From contig NZ_MLBG01000010.1 of NCBI RefSeq assembly GCF_001936595.1, positions 1-64,000 on the forward strand: a stretch of 64,000 nt of DNA, given 5' to 3'. Positions 8,162-48,182 of the stretch are shown piece after piece. Origin of the DNA: Desulfovibrio sp. DV. GTDB lineage: Bacteria > Desulfobacterota > Desulfovibrionia > Desulfovibrionales > Desulfovibrionaceae. Within the stretch, counting starts at the first letter, position 1. Every line of letters starts with the position of its first letter. The position numbers and the translations under genes are program-made. The notes under the pieces are model-generated. The model was given only the letters and a program-made list of their open reading frames with translations. It had not been told where the DNA came from and made no database searches.

Positions 8162-8880
8162 TGGTCGATCTCCCTAAATTCGTCTCTGTCCAGGGCATCG
8201 CCGGCCGCAAACCAAAGAGTTTGAACCGTCGCCCGTTGCCCGGCGCTCCATTCCCGGGGATAAACCGGCCACCGGCTCCCACCGTCGCCTCGGCAAAACC
8301 GAAGCCTCTTGTGCGCCCGCATGATGTCCAAGACGATTTCCACGGCCTGGGCCTGGGTCAGGATTGGCAAGCGGTCCATGTTGGCGGAAAGGTAGTCCTG
8401 GGCTTCGGCCAAGAGTGATCCGGTATAGGCCACCAACTCCGGTTCCAGCGCCGGGGGATAGATGGCGAGGACGCGCTTGCCGACACGGACCACGCACACG
8501 CCGTAGAGGCGGCACACGTCGGCCAAGTCGAAGGCGGCCCACCTTGCGTCGAAGTCGGGGGCGGCATCATCGGCAGGCCAGACGATCCACTCCAAGCCGG
8601 TCGAAAAATCGGCCGGGACAGGGAGCGGGACAGCCCCGTTTTGCTGTCCCACGCCCTCCACCCCCGTGGGACACTTTTTCGGGCACTGTCCCACGGACTG
8701 TCCCAAGCACTGTCCCACTTTTGACCGTTGTAACACCCTGTTTGCCAAGGACTTTAAAGAGACTGTCCCACGTGCTGTCCCAGTGGGTGTCCCATTATTC
8801 TTTGACTGTCCCACTGTCCCACGCCCTAGTAGCTGGGACAGTGGGACACCTTGGGTCAAAGCGATTTCGGGCGTGCTCAT
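8158..8880 (-). CDS. Hypothetical protein whose 5' end contains the ori-like iterons
   Basis: The longest frame gives 240 residues from ATG at 8880, overlapping the primase-helicase stop (ATGA). Residues 1-75 are largely the translation of TGTCCCA iterons (VGQ and GTV repeats), so the true start may be later, for example GTG near 8652. The well-formed part begins around FSTGLEWIVWPADDAAPDFD and ends TLWFAAGDALDRDEFREIDQ, with a short acidic tail. The family is not recognised. Either the iterons lie inside a gene or the gene starts after the origin. Confidence 0.5.
   Translation of the reverse strand: MSTPEIALTQGVPLSQLLGRGTVGQSKNNGTPTGTARGTVSLKSLANRVLQRSKVGQCLGQSVGQCPKKCPTGVEGVGQQNGAVPLPVPADFSTGLEWIVWPADDAAPDFDARWAAFDLADVCRLYGVCVVRVGKRVLAIYPPALEPELVAYTGSLLAEAQDYLSANMDRLPILTQAQAVEIVLDIMRAHKRLRFCRGDGGSRWPVYPREWSAGQRATVQTLWFAAGDALDRDEFREIDQ
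8645..8848. repeat. Iteron cluster B, putative replication origin
   Basis: TGTCCCA occurs at 8645, 8687, 8699, 8711, 8764, 8776, 8788, 8807 and 8815, and its complement at 8667, 8834 and 8842. The last group forms a perfect inverted repeat (8807-8821 and 8834-8848, spacer 12 bp) with the same arms as at 4905-4945. The cluster lies within 250 bp of the end of the primase-helicase gene, as ori lies near the alpha gene in P4-like replicons. The origin role is inferred. Confidence 0.65.
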
Positions 8881-10769
8881 GACACACCCCCACCCAGCTT
8901 TTTGACCATCCGCTGGACCGTGCTTTTCGGGATGCCGGTTTCCTCGGCAATGTCCCGGATGGACATTTTTTCGGCATGGAGTTGACGCACCGTTTCAAGC
9001 TGCACGTCCTCGATGTCGCGGCAGGCCCAGGCCATGGCATCGCCATCTTGCATGAGCTTGGCCTCAAATGGCTTGGCGTCGTCTCCGATGATGCCCCGGG
9101 CTTTTTCGAGGTGGACCTCGAAACGCGCTCCTTCCTCGGGCCGGTAGTCCTGGGGCCGGCGCAAACTGATGACGGTATCGAGAACGTCCTCCCGGCTGGA
9201 CGTACCGCGTTGCCCGCCGCTCTTGTTGGCATGGTGAACCAGCAGTACCGATATGCCCCGGCGACGGAGTGCGAGAATCCACTCCTGAACCGGGAGCCAG
9301 CCCTCGGCCTCGTTCTCCCGGCCGGCGCGGCAGAGCGTGGCGAGATTATCCACGACAAGCAGCTCCACCCCCTCCAGGCAGGGAGCCAGGGCCGCCTGTC
9401 CTTCCGGCGTGGCGAGGTTTGGCATTGCCAGCGGTTGCGTGTCCGGCGTGATAATCTGCATGAATCCCGGCAGCGGTTCCTTTGCATAGCTGGCGACGAT
9501 TCCGGCCAGCCGTTCCTGCATCGCGTTCGCCGGCATTTCCCCGTCCAGGTACAGGACGCGCCGTGGAGTGACCGCTTGCCAACGGAAGACCATTTGCCCC
9601 GTTGCAACCGCGTAGGACAGATGCAACGCGAAGTGCGTCTTGCCGATGCCACGCATGGCATAGAGCATGACAAGCCCCTGGCACGGGATGACCGGCGATA
9701 TGACGTACTCGCGGGGCTTTATGTCCAAGGCCAGGAAATCGCGGATGTCGAAGATTACCAGCCCCGGCTTGTCGGTCTTTGCGTCGGTCGCCCCCGGGGC
9801 TTCGGCCGCCTCCAGTGCCGCCTTGACCGCCTCCAGGCCCGACGCCTGGGCCATGTCGTTGAAGTCAGTCCCGCCGGTCGGGTCCGTGAACCTGGGAACG
9901 GCCAATAGCGCTTTGACCGCGACGGCCGCCTCGGTCGCTTTCGACAGGCCGGGGTTGCCGGCGGTCTTGGCGTCGTCGTCGGCGCAGATGATGATTTCCC
10001 GATCCGGGTATTGCGCTCGGGCCATTTCCGCCACGGCCAAGAGGTTGCCGCAGTTGAACGCCACCAGCACGGCCGCCCCGGTCGCGGCGTGGATCGTCGC
10101 CCCGGTCGCGTAACCCTCGCAGACGTAAAGGCGGCCCTTTTTCTCTCCATTGGCGGCGAGGATGGGGGAATACCCACCTTTGAGCTTTCCGCCCGCGAGA
10201 AAGAGCTTATCGCCCTCCAAGCCGATGAATTGGAGCGACATAACCGCGCCCTTGGCGTCGAGGACCGGAACCACCAGCCGCCCGTCGTCGGCAATGCGGA
10301 TGTCCCCCACCGGGGCAACGCCCTTGCGGACCAGATATCCGTGGTCGCTGGGGGCCGGCATGGTCGCGGCCAGGATGCGCTTTGCTTCGACACGGGCCTC
10401 GCCCTGGCGCTTGGCTTCATCTTCCTGGCGGCGCTTTTTCTCGGCGGCATACCGGGCCTTGAGGCGGGCGCGTTCCTCGGTCGTCAACTCGCGGTCGCCC
10501 TTGGCGCAGAACTTGAAGCTCTCGCTGGTTCGCCAGTCGCCGTAGGCAGCGGACACCGGATCATCACCGTGTGCGATGTACCAGCCATTAAGGCCATGCG
10601 GTTTGTCAGCCGTACCACAGCGATGAATTCGGCCGTCGAGGACAACCTCGCCGGGAATGACGCCGTTGCCCTCCATGGCGGCGGTCAGGGATTCCACGGC
10701 TTTTTGCACGGATATGATAAGCGGCGGCATCGGCGTCTCCATTCGGGGGGAATGAGGGGCAGCGTCCAT
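8877..10769 (-). CDS. Toprim primase fused to a RepA-like helicase
   Basis: The product is about 630 residues. A Toprim primase domain is visible from KGRLYVCEGYATG (near residue 211) to IICADDD (near 261). A RecA-fold helicase follows, with Walker A in MRGIGKTHFALHL (near 376) and Walker B in ELLVVDNLATL (near 471). The last 40 residues form a helix-turn-helix (MSIRDIAEETGIPKSTVQRM) that could bind iterons. This layout matches replication proteins of P4-like satellites and mobilisable islands, though here the helicase is RepA-like rather than D5-like. ATG at 10769 was chosen because it has GGGAG upstream and lies just past the preceding stop; an upstream ATG would overlap that gene. Confidence 0.88.
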   Translation of the reverse strand: MDAAPHSPRMETPMPPLIISVQKAVESLTAAMEGNGVIPGEVVLDGRIHRCGTADKPHGLNGWYIAHGDDPVSAAYGDWRTSESFKFCAKGDRELTTEERARLKARYAAEKKRRQEDEAKRQGEARVEAKRILAATMPAPSDHGYLVRKGVAPVGDIRIADDGRLVVPVLDAKGAVMSLQFIGLEGDKLFLAGGKLKGGYSPILAANGEKKGRLYVCEGYATGATIHAATGAAVLVAFNCGNLLAVAEMARAQYPDREIIICADDDAKTAGNPGLSKATEAAVAVKALLAVPRFTDPTGGTDFNDMAQASGLEAVKAALEAAEAPGATDAKTDKPGLVIFDIRDFLALDIKPREYVISPVIPCQGLVMLYAMRGIGKTHFALHLSYAVATGQMVFRWQAVTPRRVLYLDGEMPANAMQERLAGIVASYAKEPLPGFMQIITPDTQPLAMPNLATPEGQAALAPCLEGVELLVVDNLATLCRAGRENEAEGWLPVQEWILALRRRGISVLLVHHANKSGGQRGTSSREDVLDTVISLRRPQDYRPEEGARFEVHLEKARGIIGDDAKPFEAKLMQDGDAMAWACRDIEDVQLETVRQLHAEKMSIRDIAEETGIPKSTVQRMVKKLGGGVS

Positions 10770-10770
10770 G

Positions 10771-11103
10771 CTATGCTCCCGCCTTTCCGCGATAGAGATA
10801 AAGTGCGACGCGATGCACGTTGCCTTCTGCCGTAACGTCGTCGGTCCAGACGGTATCAATCAGGTGGCCGCGATTGCGTAGCTCCTGCACGCGGGCGGCC
10901 GGGTGAAGGATGTCATATTCTCTACGGGCTTTGAGGGTGGAGACGGGGCCTTTGATGAGGGCGGCCAGCAGCCGGGACCGCTGGGCAGATGCGGAATTGT
11001 CGTTGCCATTTTCGGTAGGGCTGTGCAGGATGGGCTTGTCGTCGCAGACAATCCCTTTTTCCACGCCCTGGCTGGCTTCGGTTGGGGCTTTTCCGTTCTC
11101 CAT
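10771..11103 (-). CDS. Helix-turn-helix protein (HTH_39-like)
   Basis: The product is 110 residues. Residues 40-85 (SRLLAALIKGPVSTLKARRE, then ILHPAARVQELRNRGHLIDT) fit the small winged helix-turn-helix family often found beside phage replication genes. It probably binds element DNA as a regulator or origin accessory factor. The gene lies between alpA and the primase-helicase with almost no spacing, so it is in the same transcript. Confidence 0.7.
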   Translation of the reverse strand: MENGKAPTEASQGVEKGIVCDDKPILHSPTENGNDNSASAQRSRLLAALIKGPVSTLKARREYDILHPAARVQELRNRGHLIDTVWTDDVTAEGNVHRVALYLYRGKAGA

Positions 11104-11106
11104 GAC

Positions 11107-11316
11107 CTACGCCCCCTTGCCGGTCGCCAGCCGATCCACCAGTTCATCAACTACGCTTTCCGGCCACGCCACAGCACGTCCACCAGGAAGGCGGACAGGC
11201 GCGGGGAACACGCCTTGGCGCACGAGGTCGAGGAAACGGCTACGCTTGTAGGGGATGCGGTCTAAGACCTGCGGGAGACGGAGAAGACGCTCGGGTTTCT
11301 GATACTCGATTTGCAA
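11107..11316 (-). CDS. alpA: AlpA-family regulator / excisionase
   Basis: The product is 69 residues with the AlpA pattern: RLLRLPQVLDRIPYKRSRFL (MerR-like winged helix), VRQGVFPAPVRLPGGRAVAW and a C-terminal helix. AlpA-type proteins control integrase expression or excision in P4-like elements. The start is TTG at 11316, supported by GGAG eight bases upstream; the nearby ATG is out of frame. It is the first gene of the early run toward the primase-helicase. The palindrome at 11429-11444 upstream is a candidate operator. Confidence 0.85.
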   Translation of the reverse strand: MQIEYQKPERLLRLPQVLDRIPYKRSRFLDLVRQGVFPAPVRLPGGRAVAWPESVVDELVDRLATGKGA

Positions 11317-11612
11317 CTGGCATACTCCGGTTGGGAGTGAACCACCCTCGCGGCGAGACTTGCGGGCCGTGGGCGGGATGACCAGTAGAAACCAGAAAAT
11401 GCCGAAGGGGTGTTAGTACACTAGATCACGATACATTGGTATCGCTGACCAAGAGGAAGAGGGTCAGAAACGATTACCAACTGACTAGTCATTGGTCTTC
11501 TTTTTTCGACCGTCACCTTTTATGCTCAATACGTCACAGGCCTCTATGCAAGCCGCTGTCCGATGATACCAATTTCGATAGGTCCCTTTCTCGGTTTCTT
11601 GATAGCCTAACT
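11317..11612. promoter_or_regulatory. Control region between alpA and the cargo gene
   Basis: No gene is supported here. The perfect palindrome CGATAC-ATTG-GTATCG lies at 11429-11444, and GTGTTAGTACAC just before it. These are candidate operators for the alpA-to-replication transcript. A clear sigma-70 pair was not found. The half near 11500-11600 becomes AT-rich, like the cargo gene that follows. Confidence 0.4.
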
Positions 11613-12503
11613 TTACATAGTCAAACTTATCTTTAAATACTCTAATAGCTTCGGCATAGGCTTGTGGTGGTTTTTCTCTCCATATGTATTTTCAATATAG
11701 TCCCACAGCCAAATGCCTATTGCCCTTGGTGTATCGTCAACAGAAAAACCCCTTTTTTCTTTATCTTTGTAGTTTTTGTTGATTTTGTAGCATGCAACAT
11801 CATAGAAGGATTGGTTCCATATTGCTGAAACTTGCTCAAAATCGCTTGAAAGGTATTTTTTATAAGCATCATTGTCGTGATCATTATTTAGCTTTGCCTT
11901 TTCCATTGCTTCGTACATTAATATTGTTACTCTTCGTTCCCAATACACTAAAGTTATTTCTTTTGTGATTATGTCTATATCGAAGCTTGTGTCGATAGTG
12001 ACGACAGCATCCCTAAGCCCATTAGCCTTGGAAATTGGTGAACACACCTCGTTCGCCTCATGGGATATCGATTCATACCTGTCCGGAACATTATCCGAAA
12101 CGTTTAGGTGTTGTTTGTCAATTTTTCCATTTGTCAATATATCGTCAAGCATTTCTTCCGGTGACTTTGTAGATTTCAAGTCAAATTTGTATTTTAATTC
12201 GTCACGAACTATTACATCTTTACCAGTTTTTAAAAATAAATCACACTTATCCTTTCCTAGGATTCGTCGAAGGCCGTCCAACGTTTGTTGGCCACCTGCT
12301 AGAATTCTTTTTGTTCCACCAAGGCCATATATATTTAAATCGATTTGCCTTCTTAACTTATAAAAATCCATCCAGTTCTCTTTGTACATATCGAAGAATT
12401 CTTTTTCTCTGGCGACTTTGGCTATATAGTCTCTGTTTCTCAACGAATATTGTTGTTTCCAATAAAAATAATAGTTGGCAAATGAAATTTCTTTTTCTTC
12501 CAT
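11613..12503 (-). CDS. AT-rich cargo gene of unknown function
   Basis: The product is 296 residues, rich in Lys, Asn, Asp and Tyr. It begins FANYYFYWKQQYSLRNRDYI, and the last third holds PRAIGIWLWDYIENTYGEKN. The first part faintly recalls DUF6499-type regulator starts (an RNRDY element), but I do not recognise the family. Its base composition is far more AT-rich than the neighbouring genes, so it is a recent acquisition. It sits beside alpA, flanked by a hairpin and a control region, the kind of slot where P4-like elements carry exchangeable defence genes. A defence role is inference only. Confidence 0.75.
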   Translation of the reverse strand: MEEKEISFANYYFYWKQQYSLRNRDYIAKVAREKEFFDMYKENWMDFYKLRRQIDLNIYGLGGTKRILAGGQQTLDGLRRILGKDKCDLFLKTGKDVIVRDELKYKFDLKSTKSPEEMLDDILTNGKIDKQHLNVSDNVPDRYESISHEANEVCSPISKANGLRDAVVTIDTSFDIDIITKEITLVYWERRVTILMYEAMEKAKLNNDHDNDAYKKYLSSDFEQVSAIWNQSFYDVACYKINKNYKDKEKRGFSVDDTPRAIGIWLWDYIENTYGEKNHHKPMPKLLEYLKISLTM

Positions 12504-12539
12504 CTTCCAAGCCCCCTCGGCTCATCCCTATAGTGAAAT

Positions 12540-12592
12540 CCCCGCCCAGGCCGGTAGGGTTCCGGCTTTTTGGGAGCTACCCTAGGGCGGGG
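12540..12592. terminator. Long imperfect hairpin upstream of the cargo gene
   Basis: The outer arms CCCCGCCC (12540-12547) and GGGCGGGG (12585-12592) and the inner arms TAGGGT (12555-12560) and ACCCTA (12579-12584) give a stable hairpin between the gene at 12614 and the cargo gene. No T-run follows on the minus strand, so it may act as a terminator that insulates the cargo or as another structured element. Confidence 0.4.
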
Positions 12593-12613
12593 AAATGTCT
12601 ATGCGGTCGCCGG

Positions 12614-12814
12614 CTACGGCTGGGGAGCCTCGGCAGCTTCGCCCATGGCTTCACACAGGTTGATGGCCGTCTCAGCTTCGGCCGCCAAGTCTTCCACCAC
12701 ATCCACCAAACCGGGCAGGGCTTCCGTGCTTTGCAGATAGTCCTTCAAGAAAATGATCTTCGAGGAAATGCGGTAGAGATGGTCTTCAAGCGTTCTCGCG
12801 TTGGAGCTACACAT
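12614..12814 (-). CDS. Small helical hypothetical protein
   Basis: The product is 66 residues, mostly helical and acidic (LEDHLYRISSKIIFLKDYLQ, then LVDVVEDLAAEAETAINLCE). It overlaps the end of the upstream gene by eight bases, so the two are probably translated together and may interact. No family is recognised. Confidence 0.55.
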   Translation of the reverse strand: MCSSNARTLEDHLYRISSKIIFLKDYLQSTEALPGLVDVVEDLAAEAETAINLCEAMGEAAEAPQP

Positions 12815-13367
12815 GGGCGGCCTCCTTCGGCTCCCACTTCACGGCCAAGATGGTGCCGGTTGAGGCCCCGGGGTAGGTTGCCTGGGCGCGAACGAATCGG
12901 ACTCGCCCCACGTGCTTTTCAAAAGCATCGTCCACAGCGTCGATCTGGCTTTCGGCCTGCTTCAACAGAGATTCGATGATGGACCCCAAGCGCACAGGGT
13001 CTATCAGCGGATTTGCATCTCCAATTATGTCCATGTCGAGAAGCATATCCTTGAGTGACCAGAGGGGCAAAAGGGCCTCCTCCGCAATCCCGCTCACATG
13101 GTCGAAGTACGTCTTATCCTTGTGAGGTAAGCCCGGCTCCTCGACAGGCGGGGTAGATTTCTTGGCGTCCTCATCTTTGGCATGGACCAGCAAGGACACA
13201 TTGAACAGGCTCTTGGTCAAAGATTCAAAGATTCCCTCCCCGGCAAGGCGCGCATCATCGTCTGTCTGCACATCGTCAAGTTTGGCCTTGGCACCTTTCA
13301 ATGCGTCGGTTACGGTCTGGAGGCTGCCGAGCAACGCGTCCTTGAGTTCGTGGGTCTTGCTATCCAT
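12807..13367 (-). CDS. Hypothetical helical protein of the element
   Basis: The product is about 186 residues from ATG at 13367, chosen for GAGGTA upstream; a longer frame would run through the preceding gene. It is mostly alpha-helical with heptad-like stretches (SLQTVTDALKGAKAKLDDV, SIIESLLKQAESQIDAVDDA), and the C-terminus reads like a beta strand (TGTILAVKWEPKE). No catalytic motif is visible. It is coupled to the genes on both sides: its start lies four bases past the upstream stop and its end overlaps the next gene. The function is unknown. Confidence 0.55.
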   Translation of the reverse strand: MDSKTHELKDALLGSLQTVTDALKGAKAKLDDVQTDDDARLAGEGIFESLTKSLFNVSLLVHAKDEDAKKSTPPVEEPGLPHKDKTYFDHVSGIAEEALLPLWSLKDMLLDMDIIGDANPLIDPVRLGSIIESLLKQAESQIDAVDDAFEKHVGRVRFVRAQATYPGASTGTILAVKWEPKEAAHV

Positions 13368-13371
13368 GGCG

Positions 13372-13581
13372 CTATACCTCCACCTTGAAAGCAAAGTCGC
13401 CGCACCAGCTATCCGCCGGCACTTCGGGCCAGATGCCGACATGGCCGTTTCCGCCGGCCACCTGTCCCGCGACGATCAAAGGTGCCCGCTTGTGGCAGGC
13501 GTTGTCAAACTTCCATCGGCAGATGGCGCAGCGGGGCCGCTTGCTGGTCCTCTGTCCATGCTGTAAGGCCGTCTCAGTCAT
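13372..13581 (-). CDS. Small Cys/Trp metal-binding protein
   Basis: The product is 69 residues. It has CAICRWKFDNACHKRAP and then WPEVPADSWCGDFAF. Four Cys with the WP...ADSWCGDF ending occur in a family of short proteins in phages and Desulfovibrio-type genomes that probably bind zinc or an iron-sulfur cluster. AGGAGG lies just upstream of ATG. It opens the three-gene run behind the integrase. The role is unknown. Confidence 0.6.
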   Translation of the reverse strand: MTETALQHGQRTSKRPRCAICRWKFDNACHKRAPLIVAGQVAGGNGHVGIWPEVPADSWCGDFAFKVEV

Positions 13582-13695
13582 GGCCGTACCTCCTCTTCAG
13601 GTCGGTTGTGATAGGCCTCGGCCGGTGCTGGTACCACCGACCGGGGCCGCATTATAAGGTCCGCCCCTTTCAGGCGGGTTCCTCCATGGTGGTGG

Positions 13696-14949
13696 TCATT
13701 CTCCGGCGGTCGCGTGAAGCGGCGTAATCTTTGCGCCGGCCTTTAGCTGGTCCAGATAGTCGGAATATGCCTGCATCATTTTCCGGCGCTCGGGCAAATA
13801 TTCGGCCCGGTTGTAGGCGGCTCTGATGGAATTGCGCTCGGCGTGGGCAAGCTGCCGCTCGATAAGGTCACTGGACCACGAAAGCTCGTTCAAAAGCGTG
13901 GAAGCCATGGCTCGGAAGCCGTGAGCGCACATTTCCCCTTGTTCATAGCCCATGCGCCGAAGGGCGGCATTCATCGCCATGTTGGACATGCAGCGGCCGT
14001 TGGTACGGTTGCAGGGGAAGAGATAGCGGTCATGGCCGGTCAAAGAGTGCAAGTCCGTGATGATCTCCACCGCCTGCTTCGACAGCGGCACGACATGATC
14101 CCGGCGCATCTTCATCTTCTCGGCAGGAATGGACCAGCGGGGGCCATCGGCTGCGTCGAGGTCGATCTCCGACCACTCCGCTTGCCGCAGTTCACCAGGG
14201 CGCACAAATACCAGCGGGGCCAGCCGCAAGGCCGCCACCGTGACGGGGCTTCCCTGATAGCCGTCTATGGCCCGCAGCAGTTGCGCCACACCCTTGGGGT
14301 CAATGATGGCTGGCCGGTTTGTAGCTCGACAGGGAGCAAGCGCCCCACGTAGATCAGCGCCGACGTTTCTTTCGGCAATGCCCGTGGAAATGGCGAAGGT
14401 AAAAACCGCCTCGCAGTATTGCCGCAGGCGCTTGGCTGTCTCGTGATTGCCCTTGGCCTCGATCTCCCGAAGCGTGGGCAGAATGGCGGGAGCGCGTAGC
14501 GTGGAAATAGGGATGCTGCCGAAGGCAGGGAAAAGATGCTGTTCGATGCGCCCCAGGACTTTGGCGGCGTGCCCCTCGCTCCACACTTTCACCTGTTTGG
14601 CGTGCCAATCCCTGGCGACCACCTCAAAGGTATTCGTGTCTTCGGCGGCCTGGGCCTCGGCGTCGGTCCTGTCCTGCTTGCGCTTTTCGGACGGGTCCAC
14701 ACCTTGGGCAACCAGAGCGCGAGCTTCATCACGTCGCTGCCGGGCCATCTTCAAGCCCACGTCGGGCCACTTGCCCAGCGCTAGCAGCTTTTCCTTGCCG
14801 TCGAAGAGGTACTTGAACCGCCAGAGCTTGCCGCCGGTTGGGGTAACTTGGAGAAACAGCCCGGCCCCGTCGAACATCTTCACCGGCTTGTCGGCGGCCT
14901 TGGCGTTTCGGATGGCAACGTCCGTTAGGGGTATCGTCTTTTTCGGCAT
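13696..14949 (-). CDS. int: P4-type tyrosine integrase of element 1
   Basis: The product is about 417 residues. The N-terminal arm-binding domain (DUF4102 type) reads TIPLTDVAIRNAKAADKPVK, then DGAGLFLQVTPTGGKLWRFK. The catalytic domain has Arg in VFVRPGELRQ, HxxR in CAHGFRAMAST, His in LAHAERNS and the likely Tyr in RAAYNRAEYL. Such integrases recombine at tRNA 3' ends. ATG at 14949 was chosen for GAGGAAG upstream; the extra 34 residues of the longer frame look non-coding. The start is 215 bp from the tRNA, and TACCCC motifs around it may be its own arm sites. Confidence 0.95.
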   Translation of the reverse strand: MPKKTIPLTDVAIRNAKAADKPVKMFDGAGLFLQVTPTGGKLWRFKYLFDGKEKLLALGKWPDVGLKMARQRRDEARALVAQGVDPSEKRKQDRTDAEAQAAEDTNTFEVVARDWHAKQVKVWSEGHAAKVLGRIEQHLFPAFGSIPISTLRAPAILPTLREIEAKGNHETAKRLRQYCEAVFTFAISTGIAERNVGADLRGALAPCRATNRPAIIDPKGVAQLLRAIDGYQGSPVTVAALRLAPLVFVRPGELRQAEWSEIDLDAADGPRWSIPAEKMKMRRDHVVPLSKQAVEIITDLHSLTGHDRYLFPCNRTNGRCMSNMAMNAALRRMGYEQGEMCAHGFRAMASTLLNELSWSSDLIERQLAHAERNSIRAAYNRAEYLPERRKMMQAYSDYLDQLKAGAKITPLHATAGE

Positions 14950-15002
14950 GGGGTACTTCCTCACATCGAAATGTGATGTCGCCATGCGGGATTGAGGCAA
15001 AG

Positions 15003-15049
15003 TACCCCAACGATCTCCGCATCGGCTCGCGTACCCCGACAAATACCCC
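15003..15049. promoter_or_regulatory. Putative integrase arm-type sites, right end
   Basis: TACCCC occurs at 15003, 15032 and 15044, and its complement near 14951, between the integrase start and the att core. The pair at 15032 and 15044 matches the pair at 2450 and 2462 near the other end in word and spacing. The motif lies where the integrase promoter is expected, so binding could also regulate int. Confidence 0.5.
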
Positions 15050-15080
15050 ATAAAGAGTGGATGTCAACGGACGTAAAAAG

Positions 15081-39508: not shown

Positions 39509-40960
39509 TCAGGCCAGCCGGGAGAAGAGGAAGAAGAGCCCGGCCCCAAGCAACATGGCCGCCGGCAGGGTGAACACCCAGGCCATGGCGATGGACCGCA
39601 GGGTGCGCATCTGGAGTCCGCTTTTATGGGCAGCCATGGTGCCGGCCACGCCGGAGGACAGGACGTGGGTGGTGGACACCGGCAACCCCAGGCCGTCGGC
39701 CAGACCGATGGTGACCATGGCCACGATCTGGGCCGAGGCTCCCTGGGCGTAGCTCAGCCGGGTCTTGCCGATTTTTTCGCCGATGGTGACCACGATACGC
39801 TTCCAGCCGACCATGGTGCCGATGCCAAGGGCCAGGGACACGGCCATGATCACCCAGTCCGGGGCGTATTCCGTGGGCCGGCGCAAGGTCCGGCGCAGCT
39901 CCCCGATATTGAGCTGGCCGGTGCTGCCATCGGGCAACCCTTCCATGATGCGGGCTGCGTCATCGAGGCACAGGATGTCGGTGCGCAGATTCCAGCGCTC
40001 GGCCGGCGGTACGGCCGCAATGGAATCGTACAGGGCCAGACGCTGCTGGATGGCTTCCGAGGCAGCCACGGCCCCGCGCACATCGCAGGACACGGCCGAA
40101 GCCTTCTGGGGCATCTCCTGGATGTCGCCCGCGCGGTAGGCCTTTTCGATCTCCAGGCGATGGGCGTCGAAATAATCGGTGAATCTGGCCGCAGCCTGGC
40201 GCACGGCGGCAATTTCCGCAGCCGGGGTGTCCACATCCAGGGCATAGACCCCGGGCAGAATGCCGATCAAAATGAGCATGACCAGGCCCACGCCCTTCTG
40301 GCCGTCGTTGGAGCCATGGGCCAGACTGACGCCAAGGCCGGACACAATCAGCGCCGCCCGCATCCCCGGCGGCGGCGGCGCGTCGCCCACCGGCGGCTGG
40401 TGCAGGGCCGGATTTTTAAGCATCCGCTGCAAAACAAGCAGCAGCCCGCCGGCCAGGACAAAGCCGATGACCGGGGAAATAAACAGCGACAGCCCGACCT
40501 CGAAAGCCTTGTGCCAGTTGACGCCGGCCCCGGCCGGCAGCCCCTCGCGCACGGCATTGGCCACCCCGACCCCGAGGATGGACCCGATCAGCGTATGGGA
40601 GCTTGAGGCCGGCAGCCCCAGGTACCAGGTGCCGAAATTCCATAGGATGGCCGAAACGAGCAGGGAAAAGACCATGGCCAGCCCAAGGTTGGTGTTGACC
40701 GACACAAGCAGGTCAACCGGCAGCAGATGGACGATGGCATAGGCCACGGCGATGCCGCCAAGCGACACCCCGAAGAAATTGCAGATGCCGGACAAGACCA
40801 CGGCCGTGCGGGCGCTTAAGGATTTCGTGTAAATAACCGTGGCCACGGCATTGGCCGTATCATGAAAGCCATTGACGAATTCAAAGGTCAGGGCGATACC
40901 CAGCGACACCACCAGAAGCAGCAGTGTATGGTTGTCAACACTGGAGAATATTTCAAACAT
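39509..40960 (-). CDS. pit: PiT-family inorganic phosphate transporter
   Basis: The product is 483 residues with about ten membrane segments. The two PiT signatures are present: GFHDTANAVATVIYTKSLSA at the N-terminal repeat and GSNDGQKGVGLVMLI in the second, with WYLGLPASSSHTLIGSILGV and GLPVSTTHVLSSGVAG. It imports phosphate (with H+ or Na+). A soluble loop of about 130 residues in the middle is longer than in some relatives. It diverges from nothing nearby; the Nif11-like gene lies upstream on the same strand and the GAK operon beyond. Confidence 0.93.
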   Translation of the reverse strand: MFEIFSSVDNHTLLLLVVSLGIALTFEFVNGFHDTANAVATVIYTKSLSARTAVVLSGICNFFGVSLGGIAVAYAIVHLLPVDLLVSVNTNLGLAMVFSLLVSAILWNFGTWYLGLPASSSHTLIGSILGVGVANAVREGLPAGAGVNWHKAFEVGLSLFISPVIGFVLAGGLLLVLQRMLKNPALHQPPVGDAPPPPGMRAALIVSGLGVSLAHGSNDGQKGVGLVMLILIGILPGVYALDVDTPAAEIAAVRQAAARFTDYFDAHRLEIEKAYRAGDIQEMPQKASAVSCDVRGAVAASEAIQQRLALYDSIAAVPPAERWNLRTDILCLDDAARIMEGLPDGSTGQLNIGELRRTLRRPTEYAPDWVIMAVSLALGIGTMVGWKRIVVTIGEKIGKTRLSYAQGASAQIVAMVTIGLADGLGLPVSTTHVLSSGVAGTMAAHKSGLQMRTLRSIAMAWVFTLPAAMLLGAGLFFLFSRLA

Positions 40961-41042: not shown

Positions 41043-41225
41043 CTACGTTCCTTCGACAAGATGCACCAAAGCCTGTCTGGCCTTGAGTTCCTCGACAGTG
41101 AAAACGAATCCCTGGGCAGCGGCATGGGCCACCAGTTCATCTACCGGCATCCCGCCGACCAAAAGCAGGCGGTCTTTGTCTGCCTGCAACCACGACAGAA
41201 AACGATCAATGGCATCCTGGCTCAT
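41043..41225 (-). CDS. Nif11-like small protein
   Basis: The product is 60 residues from ATG at 41225 (GGAGGG five bases upstream). QDAIDRFLSWLQADKDRLLL and VDELVAHAAAQGFVFTVEEL match the Nif11 domain (helices ending in GFxFxxEEL). There is no Gly-Gly cleavage motif or core peptide, so it is not an obvious RiPP precursor. Nif11 proteins of this short kind have no known function. It lies between the PiT transporter and the GAK operon. Confidence 0.65.
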   Translation of the reverse strand: MSQDAIDRFLSWLQADKDRLLLVGGMPVDELVAHAAAQGFVFTVEELKARQALVHLVEGT

Positions 41226-41456
41226 ACGGCCCTCCATGAAACGAGCCTAGCCCATTGTCCCGGCTCGGTACAGGCGCTGTCCGTGAAGTTTGCGTCAATG
41301 CCGGATGACAAACCGGTGATGCCGGCCGCGCCTGGACGAGTTTGCCAAACGATGTCAAAAATAGCTGCCCGAGCTTAACCTCTTCTTCATAATCGAATGG
41401 TAGAGGCTTTGTCGCGGCCCCGGGTATTGCGCCGGGGCCATCCAAGGAGGACGCGC

Positions 41457-41732
41457 GTGAACAAGCTTTTCAAATATGACGGATTGCAGCAGCCCGACAC
41501 CATTGCCGCCTATCTCGAGGCGGTGCGTGACGGCTTTGCGACCGGTGAGATCACCCTGACCCAGGGCGAGGACGTGCTGACTCTGGCCCCCAAGGGACTG
41601 GTGGCGGTCACTGTCGAGGGCAAGCTCAAGGGTGAGGACCGCAAGCTCAAGCTGACCTTTCGCTGGAAGGAACGCGAGCAGGAATGCAATGCCCCCCTGC
41701 TCATCACGGCCCGGGACGACGGCGATGCATGA
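41457..41732 (+). CDS. Amphi-Trp domain protein (GAK system)
   Basis: The product is 91 residues from GTG at 41457, with AAGGAGG six bases upstream. FKYDGLQQPDTIAAYLEAV, then DGFATGEITLTQGEDVLTLA and LKGEDRKLKLTFRWKEREQE fit the amphi-Trp family, whose conserved Trp ends an amphipathic strand. The function of the family is unknown; it typically lies in an operon with an ATP-grasp enzyme and an HprK-like kinase, as here. It overlaps the next gene by eight bases. Confidence 0.75.
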   Translation: MNKLFKYDGLQQPDTIAAYLEAVRDGFATGEITLTQGEDVLTLAPKGLVAVTVEGKLKGEDRKLKLTFRWKEREQECNAPLLITARDDGDA

Positions 41733-43356
41733 GATCGAACGCAACTTCAAATTCCTGCTTGTCGAGATCGAACGCCAGATCGAGGGCACGATTGCCGTTT
41801 TGGAGCATCGCGACGAAAAGGCCATCGCCAAAATCGAGGCCCGCGACGACTATATCGACAACTTGAAAAGCGTCATCGAGAATGCCTGTTTTGCCACGCT
41901 GCACGGCGAGACCCGGCCCAGTGCCCCGGAAGTCGCCCGTATCCGGGCCTTTCACATCATCGGCAGCAACCTTGAACGGGTGGGCGACCATGCCGTCAAC
42001 GTGGTGCGTCAGACCCGCCACTACGACGACCCGGAATGCGTCAAACGCTATGCCTACAAGCCGTTTTTCCAGGAAATACGCAACGCCCTGGCCTGGATGC
42101 CCAAGGCCGTGCTTGAACGGGACATGGCGACGGCCCTTAAAATCTGCCGCTGCGAGCTGCACCTCGACCGTCTGTACAAGCAGGAGTTCGACCGCATCCG
42201 CGACGAACTGCGCTCGGGGTTCGGCACCGGCGATCTGCTGACCACGCTTTTTATCTTCCGCTATCTGGAACGCATGGGCGACGCCCTGTTAAATGTCGGC
42301 GAGGCCGCCATCTTCGGCATCACCGGCGACAAGTTCAAAATCCGCCAGTTCACGGCCCTAAGCGACATCCTGGCCGAGTCCGGCCACGAAAACCCGCTGT
42401 CCGACCTGGAATTCGAGTCCATCTGGGGGACGCGCTCGGGCTGCCGCATCGGCCGGGTGCTGGAACGCGGCGGCGAGGACGACTGCCACAAGGAAGTGAT
42501 CTTCAAGGACGGCGACAGCGCCAAGCTGCGCCAGGAAGCGGACAACTTCGCCCGCTGGGAAGCCCTCATGCCCGGCCTTGCCCCGCGGCTGGAAGCCTTT
42601 CGCGAAGGCAAAAAAACCAGCTCCATGCTGATCGAACTGCTGCCCGGCCAGACCATCCAGGACCTGGCCCTGTCAAGCGACCTCGATCTCCTGGGCCGGG
42701 CCCTGGCCGCCCAGTGCCGCACGGCCAAGGCCCTGTGGGACAAAACCCTGACCGCGACCCCGGTGGCTGCCGGCTCCATCAGGCAACTGCGCGCCCGCCT
42801 GCCCGAGGTGCTCACCGTCCATCCCGGCTTTCGCCTCAAGCGCCGGACCATCGGCTCGTTTGTGCTGCCGTCTCTGGATGAGCTGCTCACCGCGGCAGCG
42901 GCTGCCGAGAAACCCCTGGCCGCGCCCTACTCGGTGCTTATTCACGGCGACTACAACACCAACAATATCCTTTACGACCAGACCGAAGACCGCATCCACT
43001 ACATCGACCTGCACCGCTCGACCGAAACCGATCTGGTCCAGGACGTGTCGGTCTACATGGTCTCCAACTTCCGCCTGCCGGTCTTCGACAAGGCCCGGCG
43101 GCGGGTTCTGAGCAGCGTCATCCTGGAATTCTACCGCTTTGCCGCGGCCTATGCCGCAGAAAACGGCGATACGACCTTTGACATCCGTCTGGCCCTTGGC
43201 CTTGGGCGGTCGCTTATCACGTCAACGCGCTTTGAACTGAGCGAACGCTTTTCCAAACTGATGTTTCATCGCGGCATCTTTCTGCTCGAACGCGTGGTCG
43301 GCCATACCGGCGATCCGGCCGCCTTCCGGCTGCCGCTGTCCGCGCTTTGCTACTAG
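41725..43356 (+). CDS. PhoU-like domain fused to an APH-type kinase
   Basis: The product is 543 residues. The N-terminal 230 form two PhoU-like helical bundles, each with the metal-site pattern (NLERVGDHAVNVV near residue 82 and RYLERMGDALLNVG near 180). A phosphotransferase domain follows with VLIHGDYNTNNILYDQ near 406 (catalytic HGD...N) and YIDLHRS near 425 (metal Asp). So it couples a phosphate-regulator fold to a small-molecule or protein kinase. The substrate is unknown. It is coupled to the amphi-Trp gene and followed after 30 bp by the ATP-grasp gene. Confidence 0.8.
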   Translation: MHEIERNFKFLLVEIERQIEGTIAVLEHRDEKAIAKIEARDDYIDNLKSVIENACFATLHGETRPSAPEVARIRAFHIIGSNLERVGDHAVNVVRQTRHYDDPECVKRYAYKPFFQEIRNALAWMPKAVLERDMATALKICRCELHLDRLYKQEFDRIRDELRSGFGTGDLLTTLFIFRYLERMGDALLNVGEAAIFGITGDKFKIRQFTALSDILAESGHENPLSDLEFESIWGTRSGCRIGRVLERGGEDDCHKEVIFKDGDSAKLRQEADNFARWEALMPGLAPRLEAFREGKKTSSMLIELLPGQTIQDLALSSDLDLLGRALAAQCRTAKALWDKTLTATPVAAGSIRQLRARLPEVLTVHPGFRLKRRTIGSFVLPSLDELLTAAAAAEKPLAAPYSVLIHGDYNTNNILYDQTEDRIHYIDLHRSTETDLVQDVSVYMVSNFRLPVFDKARRRVLSSVILEFYRFAAAYAAENGDTTFDIRLALGLGRSLITSTRFELSERFSKLMFHRGIFLLERVVGHTGDPAAFRLPLSALCY

Positions 43357-43386
43357 ACATCCGCGCAACGCACCATGGAGGATTAA

Positions 43387-44271
43387 ATGAAAAAGATAGG
43401 CGTGGTGGGCATTCCCGGCGGCTGGTCCACCTTACGGCTCCTGGACGCCCTGGAATCCCGCACAGGGTATCGCCTGTGCATCGACATGGCCGAGGTGCGC
43501 CTCGATCTGGAAACGGGCAAGGCCTTTTACCAGGGCACGGACCTGACCAGCCTCGATGGGCTGATCGTCAAGAAAATCGCCCCATCCTACACCCCCGACG
43601 CCCTGGACCGCATGGAGATCCTGCGGTTCCTGCGTTCCGGCGGGCTGCCGGTCTTTTCCGATCCCGACAGCATGTTTCGCCTGATTGACCGCTTAAGCGG
43701 CACGGCCGTCCTTCGCCGGGGCGGCATCCCCATGCCGCCGACGGAAATCACCGAGGATGTCGACGAGGCCGCCGCCGTGGTGGCCCGCTTCGGCCGGGCC
43801 GTGTTCAAGCCGCTCTACAGCTCCAAGGCCCGGGGCATGACCGTCATCGAGGACGGCCCGGAAGCCCATGAGGAGATTGCCGACTATCAGGCGGCCGGCA
43901 ACCGGGTCATGTACATCCAGAAGATGGTCTCCCATGCCGGCGGGCATCTGGATCTGGGCGTGTCGTTTCTCGGCGGCGAATATCTGGCCACCTACGCCCG
44001 GCAAGGCAGCGGCAACTCCTGGGACACCACCACCCGTACCGGCGGACGCTACGTGCCCCATACCCCGTCCACGGAAATCATCGATCTGGCCCACAAGGCC
44101 CAAAGCCTCTTTCCGGGCATGGCCTTTACCTGCGTCGATGTCGTGGAAACGCCCTCCGGCGCAGCCATCTACGAAGTCTCGGCCTTTGGCGGCTTCCGCG
44201 GCCTGCTCGATGCCTGCGGCATTGACGCTGCCGCCGTCTATGCCGATTACGTCCTGGAGAACATCCGATGA
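43387..44271 (+). CDS. GAK-system ATP-grasp enzyme
   Basis: The product is 294 residues. The ATP-grasp fold, RimK-like, is supported by RAVFKPLYSSKARGMTVIED (ATP Lys and loop), VMYIQKMVSH and DVVETPSGAAIYEVSAFGGF with the metal-binding acidic and Asn/Ser positions. It would ligate a carboxylate to an amine or thiol, probably on a peptide or protein. The symbol is not known. ATG overlaps nothing upstream; its stop overlaps the next gene (ATGA). Confidence 0.8.
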   Translation: MKKIGVVGIPGGWSTLRLLDALESRTGYRLCIDMAEVRLDLETGKAFYQGTDLTSLDGLIVKKIAPSYTPDALDRMEILRFLRSGGLPVFSDPDSMFRLIDRLSGTAVLRRGGIPMPPTEITEDVDEAAAVVARFGRAVFKPLYSSKARGMTVIEDGPEAHEEIADYQAAGNRVMYIQKMVSHAGGHLDLGVSFLGGEYLATYARQGSGNSWDTTTRTGGRYVPHTPSTEIIDLAHKAQSLFPGMAFTCVDVVETPSGAAIYEVSAFGGFRGLLDACGIDAAAVYADYVLENIR

Positions 44272-45350
44272 GCAGTCCCACCATTGCCGGACTCATGGCC
44301 CCGATTCTTGCCGAGGCCCCTCTTGCCCACCGCCTGGAAGTGACCTTTGCCGACGTCACGGTCGCCCTCGCCACCAATTCCCAGGCCCTGACCGACAAGC
44401 TTGGCCACTACTACCGCGACTTCCTCGGCAGCGGCGGGACCACCACCATCGAGGTCACGGCCATCGAGGCCGGGCCGCCGGACTTCGACCTGCCGCTCAG
44501 TGTTCATGCCCGGGAACCCGGCAAGACCAAGCTCAAGGAAGCCTCCGTCGACCTGCCTGACGGACGCGTGGTGCGAAAACTCACCACCGGATTGGTGTTT
44601 CTGTTTGGCCAGGGCAAAAACTACGCTGTCGGGCCGTGCATCGAAAACGACAACCAGATCGTCAACTTCATCAACAACCGCTTCATCGAATGGCGGCTGA
44701 AGCATGGCGCCCTGCTCTTCCACGCCGCCGGCATTGCCCAGGCCGGCGCAGGGCTGGCCATTGCCGGGTTTTCCGGAGCCGGAAAATCCACGCTCGCCCT
44801 TGAAATCATGCGCCACGGCACGGATTTCATCAGCAACGACCGGGTGATGGTATCTCGTGAGGCAAGCTCCCTGACCATGGCCGGGGTGGCCAAGATGCCC
44901 CGGGTCAACCCCGGCACGGTGCTCAACAACCCCAATCTGGCCTCGGTCATGAACGCCGGGGACAGGGCCCGCTTTGCCGCCCTGCCCCAGGCCGAATTGT
45001 GGGATCTCGAACACAAGTACGATGCCTTTATCGACGAATGCTTCGGCCCGGGCCGGTTCAAGCTGGCCTGCCCCATGGCCGGGCTGGTCATCCTGCGCTG
45101 GAAGCGAGACGCCTCGCCGCTTACGGCTTCCCGGGTCGATCTGAACCAGCGCCGCGACCTCATGCCGGCCTTTATGAAGGACGTGGGCCTTTTTTACGAA
45201 TTCGAAGACCCGTCCGAGCCGTCCATGGCCAGCCAGAACGCCTACCTCGAGTTGCTTGGCGATCTGCCGGTCCTGGAAATCGACGGCGGCGTGGATTTCC
45301 ACAAGGCGGCCCGGGAATGCCTGACGTTTCTGGAGTCTGTGCGCCGTTAG
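44268..45350 (+). CDS. HprK-related kinase B (GAK system)
   Basis: The product is 360 residues. The P-loop GFSGAGKSTLALEIMRHG near residue 168 is HPr-kinase-like, followed by DFISNDRVMVSR. An N-terminal domain of about 150 residues precedes it. It probably phosphorylates a protein, perhaps a partner encoded in this operon. The start overlaps the ATP-grasp stop by four bases, so the two are co-translated. It ends 54 bp before the P-type ATPase gene. Confidence 0.8.
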   Translation: MSSPTIAGLMAPILAEAPLAHRLEVTFADVTVALATNSQALTDKLGHYYRDFLGSGGTTTIEVTAIEAGPPDFDLPLSVHAREPGKTKLKEASVDLPDGRVVRKLTTGLVFLFGQGKNYAVGPCIENDNQIVNFINNRFIEWRLKHGALLFHAAGIAQAGAGLAIAGFSGAGKSTLALEIMRHGTDFISNDRVMVSREASSLTMAGVAKMPRVNPGTVLNNPNLASVMNAGDRARFAALPQAELWDLEHKYDAFIDECFGPGRFKLACPMAGLVILRWKRDASPLTASRVDLNQRRDLMPAFMKDVGLFYEFEDPSEPSMASQNAYLELLGDLPVLEIDGGVDFHKAARECLTFLESVRR

Positions 45351-45404: not shown

Positions 45405-48182
45405 ATGACCGATCCGACGCAACAGGCAGCCCTCAAGGCTGCCCGGCATCCGGCCGCCTCCCTGGAACATGAGGCTGCTGCCCTCGCTCCGGAGGAGGAA
45501 TTTCTCAAGCACCTCGAACATTTCGCCCAGAAAGCCAATGTATTTGCCACCTTGGCAGCCAAGAACAAGGTTGCTCCCTACGAGGCGTTTGCCCATCTGC
45601 ATACGCTTTGGGCCGAGGTGGAGCGCACCGGAGCCCGTCTGTCCGAACCGGTCCCCCTGGCCAAACCGGCCGTGGCCGGCCTGACCACTGCCGAGGCCCG
45701 GGAGCGCCTTCGCCAGTACGGGCTTAACCAGGCCGGAACGTCCAAGCGCGTCACCCTGGCCAGCCGCATCGTCGATGCCCTGAAAAATCCCCTGGTGATC
45801 CTGCTCTTTGTCCTGGGCGGCATCTCCTACGCCACGGACGACGTGCGCTCGGCCGTGGTCATCATCGGCATGGCCGTGCTCGGCGTGACCCTCAAAGTCA
45901 TCCAGGAGGCCAAGGCCGACACCGCTGCCGAGCAGCTTAAAAAGATGGTCCACACCACGGCCACGGTGCTGCGCGACGGCGGGCAGCTGGAAATCCCCAT
46001 GACCGAGGTGGTTCCCGGCGACATGGTCCTGCTGGCGGCCGGCGACATGGTCCCGGCCGATGTCCAGCTCGTACGGGCCAAGGATCTCCACGTCAACCAG
46101 GCCATGCTGACCGGCGAAGCCCTGCCGGTGGAAAAAGTCGCCCGCGCCCCGGGGCAGCCCCCGGCCGAAGGGGAGACGGGCCTGGGCGATCTGGCCATGT
46201 GCTTCATGGGCACCAACGTGGTCTCAGGCTCGGCCACAGCCCTGGTCATGGCCACCGGCACGCGGACCTATTTCGGCGGGATTGCGGCCAAGCTCTCGGA
46301 AAAGCGGGCCGAGACGGATTTCGACAAGGGCATCAAAAAGTTCACCATGCTCATGCTGCGCTTCATGATCGTCATGGTGCCCTTTGTGTTTGTCATAAAT
46401 GGCTTCACCACCGGCGACTGGATGGGCGCGTTCATGTTCGCCCTGGCCGTGGCTGTGGGGCTCACCCCGGAAATGCTGCCCATGGTGGTGACGGTGTGCC
46501 TGTCCAAGGGCGCTTTGGCCATGGCCAAACACAAGGTCATCGTCAAACGCTTGGACGCCATCCAGAACTTCGGGGCCATCGACATCCTGTGTACGGACAA
46601 GACCGGAACCCTCACCCAGGACAAGATCATCCTGGAAAAATACCTCGACGTCACCGGCGAGGAGGACAATTCGGTCCTGGAATACGCCTACGTCAACAGT
46701 ACGCTGCAAACCGGCCTGCGAAACGCCCTGGACCTGGCGGTCATCTGTTCCGGCGACGGGGTCGGAACCCACATCGACCCTTCCCGCTATGAACTGCTTG
46801 ACGAAATCCCCTTCGATTTCATGCGCCGCCGCTTGAGCGTCATTGTCAGGGATACCCACACCGGCAAGGCGATCCTTATCTGCAAGGGCGCAGCCGAAGA
46901 GGTCTTTGCCCAATGCTGCGACTGCCTCCACGACGGTGTCATCTCGCCCCTTGACGCCGTGCACCGCGAAACCATGCAGGAGCTGGTTCACGAGCTCAAC
47001 GACGACGGCTTCCGGGTGGTGGCCCTGGCCTTTGCCGAAGTGGATGGTTCGCGCCACGACTTTGCCGTGGCCGACGAGTGCAACCTGACCCTCATGGGCT
47101 ACCTCGCCTTCCTCGATCCGCCCAAGGATACGGCGGCCGACGCCCTGGCCGCCATGCTGGCCCTTGGCATCCAGCCCAAAATCCTCACCGGCGACAACGC
47201 GGTCATTACCGCCAAAATCTGCCGCGAGGTTCGGTTCGACGCCGGCGACCACCTGATCACCGGCGAGGCCGTGGCCGCCATGTCCGAGGCCGAACTGGCC
47301 GAGGCCGTGGAAATCTGCCACGTGTTCGCCAAGCTCGACCCCATGCAAAAGGAAGCCATCGTCAAGGCCCTGCGGGCGCGCGGCCATGTGGTGGGATTCA
47401 TGGGTGACGGCATCAACGACGCCCCGGCCCTGCGGGCGGCCGACATCGGCATTTCCGTGGATTCGGCCGTGGACGTGGCCAAGGAATCGGCCGACATCAT
47501 CCTGCTGGAAAAGAGCCTGGCCGTCCTCGAGCACGGCGTGGCCGAAGGCCGCAAGATCTTTTTCAACATCACCAAGTACATCCGCATGGGAGCCAGCTCG
47601 AATTTCGGCAACATGTTCAGCGTGCTCGGGGCCAGTGCCTTCCTGCCCTTCCTGCCCATGCTGCCCATCCAGATTCTGGTCAACAACCTCATGTACGACT
47701 TCTCCCAGACGGCCATCCCAACCGACAACGTGGACACCGACATCGTCAAGCAGCCCAGGCGCTGGCGCATCGACGATATCCGGCGCTACATCCTGTATCT
47801 TGGCCCGGTCAGTTCGCTGTTTGACTACGTCACCTTCTTTATCCTGCTCCATGTCTTCGGAGCCTGGGACAATGCGGCCTTGTTTCAGACCGGCTGGTTC
47901 ATCGAGTCGTTGCTGTCCCAGACGCTCATTGTCCATGTCATCCGCACGGACAAGATACCCTTCCTGCAAAGCCGTTCCAGTTTCATGCTCGGCCTGACCA
48001 CCCTGGCCATCTGCGCCGTTGGCGTGTGGCTGCCGTTTTCCCCTCTGGCCGGCTATTTCGGCCTGGTGGTCCCGCCGTCGGGCTACTGGGGCCTCATTGC
48101 CCTGGTCATCTTCTGCTACATGTGCCTGGCCCAGATCGTCAAAACCTGGGTGGTCAGGCGCATCGCATCCTGCGCCAACTAA
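45405..48182 (+). CDS. mgtA: MgtA-type P-type ATPase (Mg2+ import)
   Basis: The product is 925 residues. The phosphorylated Asp is in LCTDKTGTLTQDKIIL (near residue 398), the actuator motif in AMLTGEALPVEK (near 236) and the hinge in GFMGDGINDAPALRAADIG (near 666). QILVNNLMYDFSQTAIPTDN is the late MgtA segment before the last helices. It imports Mg2+ into the cytoplasm. A 90-residue N-terminal extension (helical, soluble) is longer than in many relatives. There is only a short gap after the HprK-like kinase, so co-transcription is likely; no M-box is visible in that space. Confidence 0.85.
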   Translation: MTDPTQQAALKAARHPAASLEHEAAALAPEEEFLKHLEHFAQKANVFATLAAKNKVAPYEAFAHLHTLWAEVERTGARLSEPVPLAKPAVAGLTTAEARERLRQYGLNQAGTSKRVTLASRIVDALKNPLVILLFVLGGISYATDDVRSAVVIIGMAVLGVTLKVIQEAKADTAAEQLKKMVHTTATVLRDGGQLEIPMTEVVPGDMVLLAAGDMVPADVQLVRAKDLHVNQAMLTGEALPVEKVARAPGQPPAEGETGLGDLAMCFMGTNVVSGSATALVMATGTRTYFGGIAAKLSEKRAETDFDKGIKKFTMLMLRFMIVMVPFVFVINGFTTGDWMGAFMFALAVAVGLTPEMLPMVVTVCLSKGALAMAKHKVIVKRLDAIQNFGAIDILCTDKTGTLTQDKIILEKYLDVTGEEDNSVLEYAYVNSTLQTGLRNALDLAVICSGDGVGTHIDPSRYELLDEIPFDFMRRRLSVIVRDTHTGKAILICKGAAEEVFAQCCDCLHDGVISPLDAVHRETMQELVHELNDDGFRVVALAFAEVDGSRHDFAVADECNLTLMGYLAFLDPPKDTAADALAAMLALGIQPKILTGDNAVITAKICREVRFDAGDHLITGEAVAAMSEAELAEAVEICHVFAKLDPMQKEAIVKALRARGHVVGFMGDGINDAPALRAADIGISVDSAVDVAKESADIILLEKSLAVLEHGVAEGRKIFFNITKYIRMGASSNFGNMFSVLGASAFLPFLPMLPIQILVNNLMYDFSQTAIPTDNVDTDIVKQPRRWRIDDIRRYILYLGPVSSLFDYVTFFILLHVFGAWDNAALFQTGWFIESLLSQTLIVHVIRTDKIPFLQSRSSFMLGLTTLAICAVGVWLPFSPLAGYFGLVVPPSGYWGLIALVIFCYMCLAQIVKTWVVRRIASCAN

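Follow-up and report, generated by a model that had tools for sequence, protein, structure and literature searches.

The GAK system is described in NCBIfam as a set of families (TIGR04354–TIGR04358) comprising a small amphi-Trp protein, the HprK-related kinase HprK_rel_B (here HprK_B), the ATP-grasp ligase grasp_GAK, the CofD-like protein CofD_rel_GAK and the XXXCH protein. Here we consider a GAK operon in a stretch of 64,000 nucleotides from Desulfovibrio sp. DV (NCBI RefSeq assembly GCF_001936595.1, contig NZ_MLBG01000010.1, positions 1 to 64,000 of the forward strand), referred to below as the window. The initial annotation of this DNA had called GAK a system without a known function; in the open-access literature searched no function and no phosphate link were found, the term ‘XXXCH domain’ occurred only in an unrelated phage paper, and the transposon-fitness literature yielded nothing on GAK. 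The phosphate response of related bacteria has been described. In D. vulgaris the PhoB box is given as a repeated (c/t)GT(n)AC (PMC3333781). In D. alaskensis polyphosphate granules disappear under phosphate limitation, a condition in which the Pst genes and PhoR are important (PMC5193443).

The window operon encodes an amphi-Trp protein, a fusion of PhoU repeats to an APH-fold kinase (PhoU::APH), grasp_GAK and HprK_B. It is a reduced four-gene form of the system, which in the window's genus is split over three loci. The favoured reading is that GAK is a phosphate-homeostasis system; to this statement, in its detailed form and taken as a whole, we assign a probability of roughly 0.6. That GAK has a phosphate function in the Desulfovibrionales and their relatives is very probable, and the detailed chemistry proposed for it is tentative. 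The reading is built from the gene set, its intact motifs, the conserved operon, its neighbourhood and a Pho-box signal. The main GAK operons are led by XXXCH and, judging from these boxes, probably belong to the Pho regulon. The families themselves had already been named; the phosphate link, a further core member and a split, reduced form accompanied by PitA and MgtA are new.

Placing GAK with phosphate provides the first concrete condition under which its product may be sought, and offers an explanation for the fusion of a PhoU domain to a kinase. If true, sulfate-reducing bacteria would control phosphate and magnesium at a further level, on top of PhoR/PhoB and PhoU.

Phosphate genes and Pho boxes at GAK loci

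At 25 of 131 loci, representing 11 of 49 genera, GAK has a gene for PstB, PstC/A, PhoU, PhoR or Pit close by. Four loci (L132, L146, L147 and L148) were fetched because of their phosphate neighbour and are omitted from the control-gene comparison; without them 21 loci in nine genera remain. In three genera (G195, G035 and G128) PhoR-PstB-PhoU or PstB-PhoU stands directly 5′ of XXXCH on the same strand, at a distance of 130–417 bases, while the order PstB-PhoU-HprK_B-CofD occurs in all four genomes examined of the window's genus (55–65 bases). HprK_B adjoins PstA/PstC in G148, 332 bases from PstA, and in the outgroup genome G285 PstC-PstA-PstB-PhoU adjoin the GAK operon. Pit is found near GAK in G086 and G128, and in genus g3 it lies 3′ of CofD, linked to it via rluA and DUF47. 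At one locus of the window's genome a frame judged by eye to encode a GGDEF/EAL-like regulator (L094:4550-7024) lies directly 5′ of PstB-PhoU-HprK_B-CofD, where a cyclic-di-GMP tie is possible.

These associations exceed what control genes display. When 20 control regions were taken from the same genomes at a shift of ~400 kb, none contained a phosphate gene. PstB occurs near GAK in six genera and PstA and PstC in three each, compared with a mean of 0.20 genera for 168 control genes, only one of which (an ABC ATPase, in four genera) reached at least three genera. PhoU seeds were found near GAK in five and seven genera; these may in part be matches to PhoU::APH, and the neighbour statistics are therefore based on PstB, PstA and PstC. 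By position within the same genome, and among the matches listed, 14 of the 129 Pit–CofD pairs lie within 10 kb (0.74 expected), 12 of them in genus g3, as do 5 of 129 PstB–CofD pairs (0.74 expected; three genera). The HprK, XXXCH and grasp entries in this comparison are partial selections.

Upstream regions of GAK operons were scanned for Pho boxes after thinning by shared 9-mers, which reduced 69 XXXCH-led regions to 61; the duplicates L030 and L031 were omitted. With a general Pho-box consensus, the mean best score of the 61 XXXCH-led starts was 10.09, against 9.56 ± 0.15 for permuted versions of the consensus (0 of 400 as high). Sites scoring at least 11 numbered 15 on the forward strand and one on the reverse, and many lie 90–124 bases before the domain start. 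Starts led by the PHP-like protein described below had weakly raised scores (25 of 400 permutations as high). A motif learned from the XXXCH-led regions, TTTGTCAyAAAACTGTAACA, resembles the D. vulgaris PhoB box (PMC3333781). In two-fold cross-validation it scored 7.31 on the forward strand, compared with 5.93 on the reverse, 6.01 at other GAK starts and 5.19 for the permuted control. When it was applied to 20 unseen Pst/Pit regions, with a site counted if it lay no more than 1 kb upstream of a phosphate gene on the same strand, the top site stood upstream of a pst, pho or pit gene in 11, against 0.80 expected by area and a permuted mean of 0.94 (maximum 6; 0 of 200 as good).

In the window's own genome the XXXCH-led operon on contig C65 has a Pho box scoring 12.5 of ~16.0 with the general consensus; with the learned motif this is the top site of its 20-kb stretch, the site having belonged to the training set. 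At the locus on contig C1, which was outside training, the top site of 20 kb is also a Pho box, and is common to relatives.

Several observations weigh against a phosphate role. No Pho-box signal was seen with the general consensus at CofD-, HprK- or amphi-Trp-led starts, and no convincing box precedes the window operon, where the highest forward score is 3.4. A weak Pho-box-like site upstream of it (41290-41313, score 10.1) is on the reverse strand, faces the Nif11-like gene and PitA, and is shared by the two closest relatives alone. The published box, with up to two mismatches, occurs at 27 of 61 XXXCH starts, barely above its frequency at other GAK starts (17 of 48). In 106 of the 131 loci the fetched flank is free of phosphate genes, and four of the other loci had been picked for such a neighbour. 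In the phosphate fitness data of D. alaskensis (PMC5193443, Table 1) no GAK gene is identifiable; the same study records a ‘phoU homolog’, Dde_2835, which gains fitness after long starvation. With one mismatch the published box is found at 15 of 61 XXXCH starts and 7 of 48 other GAK starts. At the XXXCH starts it is nearly as frequent on the reverse strand (14 of 61) as on the forward (15 of 61), a test which is not independent because GTNAC is palindromic. The repeats of the published box are spaced by four bases, against a clear peak at five in the present regions.

Canonical and reduced gene sets

The initial annotation had placed the CofD-like and XXXCH members outside the window, and they are indeed encoded elsewhere in the genome, on contigs C1, C65 and C104 (the window is on C10). 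CofD_rel_GAK lies at C1:64881-65984 (TIGR04357, 530.4 bits; cut-off 340), at the end of the order PstB, PhoU, HprK_B, CofD, which includes a second HprK_B. XXXCH proteins (TIGR04358, cut-off 40) are encoded on C65 (99.4 bits) and C104 (89.9 bits). The C65 operon runs XXXCH, a ~390-residue protein, amphi-Trp and a second PhoU::APH, and four further amphi-Trp genes are distributed over C65, C29, C31 and C16.

The nearest named relatives are Solidesulfovibrio, the ligase being 85% identical to that of S. alcoholivorans. Nine window-type loci, the window included, were compared; all have these four genes in one order, which argues that the four-gene set is not a product of chance. In a tree of 72 PhoU::APH rows the nine window-type rows form one clade (100/100) on a stem of length 0.96, whereas the C65-type copies of the same genus stand apart and group with L107, L052, L059 and L064. 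The separate clade and its long stem indicate that the window operon is a lineage of its own rather than one copied recently from the C65 operon. Two window-type operons, L028 and L031, lie on one S. alcoholivorans contig within 20,879-base stretches that are identical base for base, in opposite orientation and ~25 kb apart; this is either a large inverted duplication or an assembly artefact.

Across 199 genomes of the class, matches above cut-off were found to grasp in 98, HprK_B in 92, CofD in 172, XXXCH in 118 and amphi-Trp in 119. Of the fetched class loci, 57 have grasp as well as PhoU::APH; all of these contain amphi-Trp, 50 HprK_B, 49 the ~390-residue protein, 46 XXXCH and 41 CofD. The ~390-residue protein is absent from eight of them, seven window-type loci and L040. 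In the wider phylum grasp is present in 21 of 297 genomes, and 13 of the 17 grasp loci outside the window's family carry the ~390-residue protein, the other four stopping at nearby contig ends. Owing to this near-constant presence in class and wider-phylum loci the protein is taken as a further core member of GAK, although it has no family name in Pfam or NCBIfam. In genus g3 the ligase is present in none of 45 sampled genomes, and CofD is retained near DUF47-Pit.

The ~390-residue protein contains, in order, the motifs HWHPE, QHN, GxExDC, PHPE and GDDxH in 65 of 68 members (motif counts here and below include near-copies). By our reading it resembles a PHP metallo-phosphoesterase, though 11 members gave no Pfam PHP match at E 1, the hhalign probability against a PHP family was 0.4%, and the structural model has a predicted local distance difference test score (pLDDT) of 59. 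A separate protein of ~820–870 residues, which combines a PHP-like N-terminal part with a group-1 glycosyltransferase, is encoded near GAK in 12 loci from six genera (L094:1787-4399, L100, L103, L113, L070, L053, L072, L043, L034, L048, L087 and L040). It is mostly divergent from the GAK genes, the L040 copy lying 53 bases upstream, and it could be a phosphate-stress glycolipid enzyme.

Possible chemistry and alternative explanations

Both kinases look active from their conserved motifs: PhoU::APH has HGDxNxNN in 96 of 99 members, and HprK_B has the Walker motif GxxGxGKST together with NDR in all 102. The PhoU helix motif ER.GD...N is present in 89 of 99 PhoU::APH proteins. Both score below the cut-offs of better-known families. 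PhoU::APH matches stand-alone PhoU (TIGR02135) at 80.5 bits (cut-off 130.25), as a domain-only match, and HprK_B matches HPr kinase (TIGR00679) at 32.5 bits (cut-off 240). A role of the APH part in APH(3′) aminoglycoside resistance was rejected (NF033068, 30.9 bits; cut-off 205). The nearest solved relatives of grasp_GAK are of the LysX/RimK type. With a ligase of this group and active-looking kinases, modification of a protein, a peptide or an amino-acid-like acceptor is reasonable.

Two small proteins are candidate acceptors. The amphi-Trp protein is predicted to fold as one helix and four strands (pLDDT 85), and its best VIA match (GnsA, Z 3.1, 5.7 Å over 53 residues) is read as no match. 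The N-terminal half of XXXCH is amphi-Trp-like (hhalign ~90%; 1.3% for the other half, used as a control), and its C-terminal half is a helical domain in which CH stands exactly four residues before the end in 76 of 79 long forms. With an amphi-Trp-like half and a tail of fixed length, XXXCH appears as good a candidate substrate as amphi-Trp. The tail was not upheld as proof of ligation onto it, because it is also conserved in genomes where the ligase is missing. One XXXCH protein (L127:5493-6179, ending …EAHKRFA) has Ala in place of the conserved Cys of CH. A short stand-alone XXXCH of ~96 residues (L096:8511-8801 and similar; tail CHRTFRD) has no amphi-Trp-like half; it is conserved across the genus and has a weak Hpt match (E 0.011).

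The mechanism we propose begins when phosphate is scarce and PhoB, to judge from the Pho boxes, would switch on the XXXCH-led operon. The PhoU half of PhoU::APH may sense the phosphate or metal state, perhaps via PstB/PhoR-type partners, and would gate the APH-fold kinase, which together with HprK_B would phosphorylate a GAK substrate. The ligase would then attach an amino-acid-like group to a carboxylate, for which the small amphi-Trp and XXXCH proteins are the best acceptor candidates, while the YvcK/CofD-like protein may bind a substrate or signal that is linked to a nucleotide, and the PHP-like protein would remove phosphate. It is possible, at a confidence as low as that in the chemistry, that this is a new kind of phosphate-controlled protein tagging. 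As a phosphate transporter lies on one side of the window operon and a magnesium pump on the other, it is suggested that this part of the system tunes joint Mg2+ and phosphate uptake.

An unlikely alternative, which nevertheless survives better than the others, is that GAK builds a small cofactor-like compound, whereby the CofD-like protein and an MptN/CofF-like ATP-grasp enzyme would produce a glutamate-bearing side chain, the kinases would activate a precursor, and the phosphate neighbours would merely reflect a phosphate-containing product. Among NCBIfam families MptN ranks second for the ligase, at 121.5 bits, though with a cut-off of 350. Similarly, the CofD-like member matches Pfam CofD (121.3 bits), but it is nearer YvcK (TIGR01826, 104 bits; cut-off 196), its solved relatives are YvcK-type, and no F420 CofD model matched it at E 0.01; an F420-type pathway is thus not supported. 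A cofactor pathway would also be a poor fit to the PhoU domain and to two small non-enzymatic proteins, and CofD is kept without the rest of the set in many of the class genomes.

Less probable again is that GAK makes or mobilises a phosphate store, either polyphosphate or diphosphorylated glucose, with PitA and MgtA supplying Mg2+-phosphate. These transporters do stand on either side of the window operon, the set has two kinases and a putative PHP-like phosphoesterase, and the loss of granules under phosphate shortage noted above would suit such a role. However, the set has no known polyphosphate or sugar-kinase family, and a store would leave the ligase and the small proteins unexplained. 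Diphosphorylated glucose was reportedly once described from granules of D. gigas.

The initial annotation had proposed that phosphorylation controls the modification of a peptide or protein, for which amphi-Trp might serve as substrate or carrier. Its chemical part agrees with the intact kinase motifs and the RimK/LysX grouping of the ligase; the phosphate context, the further core member and the split within the genus had been missed. As an explanation with no special tie to phosphate it accounts for the gene set and its catalytic motifs, yet the PhoU domain, the phosphate neighbours in 11 genera and the Pho boxes make it improbable in that form. A peptide natural-product cluster, combining a Nif11-like precursor with the ATP-grasp enzyme and the HprK-type kinase, is suggested by the 64-residue Nif11-like gene beside the operon and was rejected as very improbable, since both Nif11 scores are below cut-off, the protein stops at the end of the domain with no core peptide, and the gene is found in the window's genus only.

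The window operon and its relation to known systems

The four GAK genes occupy the region to which the initial annotation had assigned an operon of overlapping or nearly touching genes, and their products match the family profiles (Table 1); amphi-Trp, grasp_GAK and HprK_B all exceed their NCBIfam cut-offs, which bears out its naming of the gene set. The frame of PhoU::APH is open from an ATG at 41689, and the in-frame ATG at 41725, which overlaps the 3′ end of amphi-Trp, is the likelier start from the family alignment. A gap of 30 bases separates PhoU::APH from grasp_GAK, which in turn overlaps HprK_B by four bases.

Table 1. Features of the window operon and its flanks (window coordinates)
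Feature	Coordinates	Strand	Remarks
PitA-type phosphate transporter	39509..40960	-	Divergent from operon; Pfam PHO4 295.5 bits; NCBIfam PitA 514.5, under strict cut-off of 800
Nif11-like 64-residue protein	41043..41237	-	Between PitA and operon, on PitA's strand; TIGR03798 20.4 bits (cut-off 32.3); Pfam Nif11 22.7 (cut-off 23.8)
Conserved upstream element TCTTCATAATCG	41384..41395	+	5′ of amphi-Trp; aligned core nearly invariant in 9/9 window-type upstream regions
Amphi-Trp protein	41457..41732	+	91 residues, GTG start; TIGR04354 65.3 bits (cut-off 31); Pfam Amphi-Trp 35 (cut-off 27)
PhoU::APH fusion	41725..43356	+	Two PhoU repeats, then APH-fold kinase; Pfam PhoU 77.7 bits (cut-off 23.5), APH 36.2 (cut-off 23.2)
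ATP-grasp ligase grasp_GAK	43387..44271	+	TIGR04356 423.9 bits (cut-off 300)
HprK-related kinase B (HprK_rel_B)	44268..45350	+	TIGR04355 556.6 bits (cut-off 200)
MgtA-type Mg2+-translocating P-type ATPase	45405..48182	+	54 bases 3′ of HprK_B; TIGR01524 1099.3 bits (cut-off 610.75)

PitA and MgtA flank eight of the nine window-type loci, and the Nif11-like gene, seen in the window's genus only, is present in the same eight. MgtA adjoins GAK genes in 11 of its 46 copies in the 199 class genomes; these belong to two genera and possibly reflect one event. The N-terminus of the pump in the window is extended by a segment that matches DUF7219 weakly (21.3 bits; cut-off 27). In the left part of the window (8877-15051), an integrase-like frame (13696-15051, minus strand) and a primase/helicase-like frame (8877-10859, minus strand), both judged by eye, suggest an integrated element.

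Compared with the GAK system of NCBIfam, this genome has all five families above cut-off, here distributed over three loci, with amphi-Trp, PhoU::APH and HprK_B duplicated. The named set omits the PhoU::APH fusion and the ~390-residue protein, both of which are constant partners here. With the Pho regulon (PhoR/PhoB, PstSCAB and PhoU) GAK shares recurrent neighbours, a PhoU domain and Pho boxes at XXXCH-led operons; it differs in the fusion of its PhoU to an APH-fold kinase, in the added ligase and second kinase, and in that the window operon is without a convincing box. The LysX/LysW and RimK systems of C-terminal amino-acid ligation resemble GAK in the fold group of the ligase and in the presence of small partner proteins, including the fixed tail of XXXCH, whereas the end motif of the GAK ligase, usually E-x-N, reads E-[VI]-S in 105 of 106 members. 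Finally, the UDP-N-acetylglucosamine-binding regulator YvcK/GlmR is the closest characterised relative of the CofD-like GAK member, which, with a YvcK score well under the cut-off, forms a separate family.

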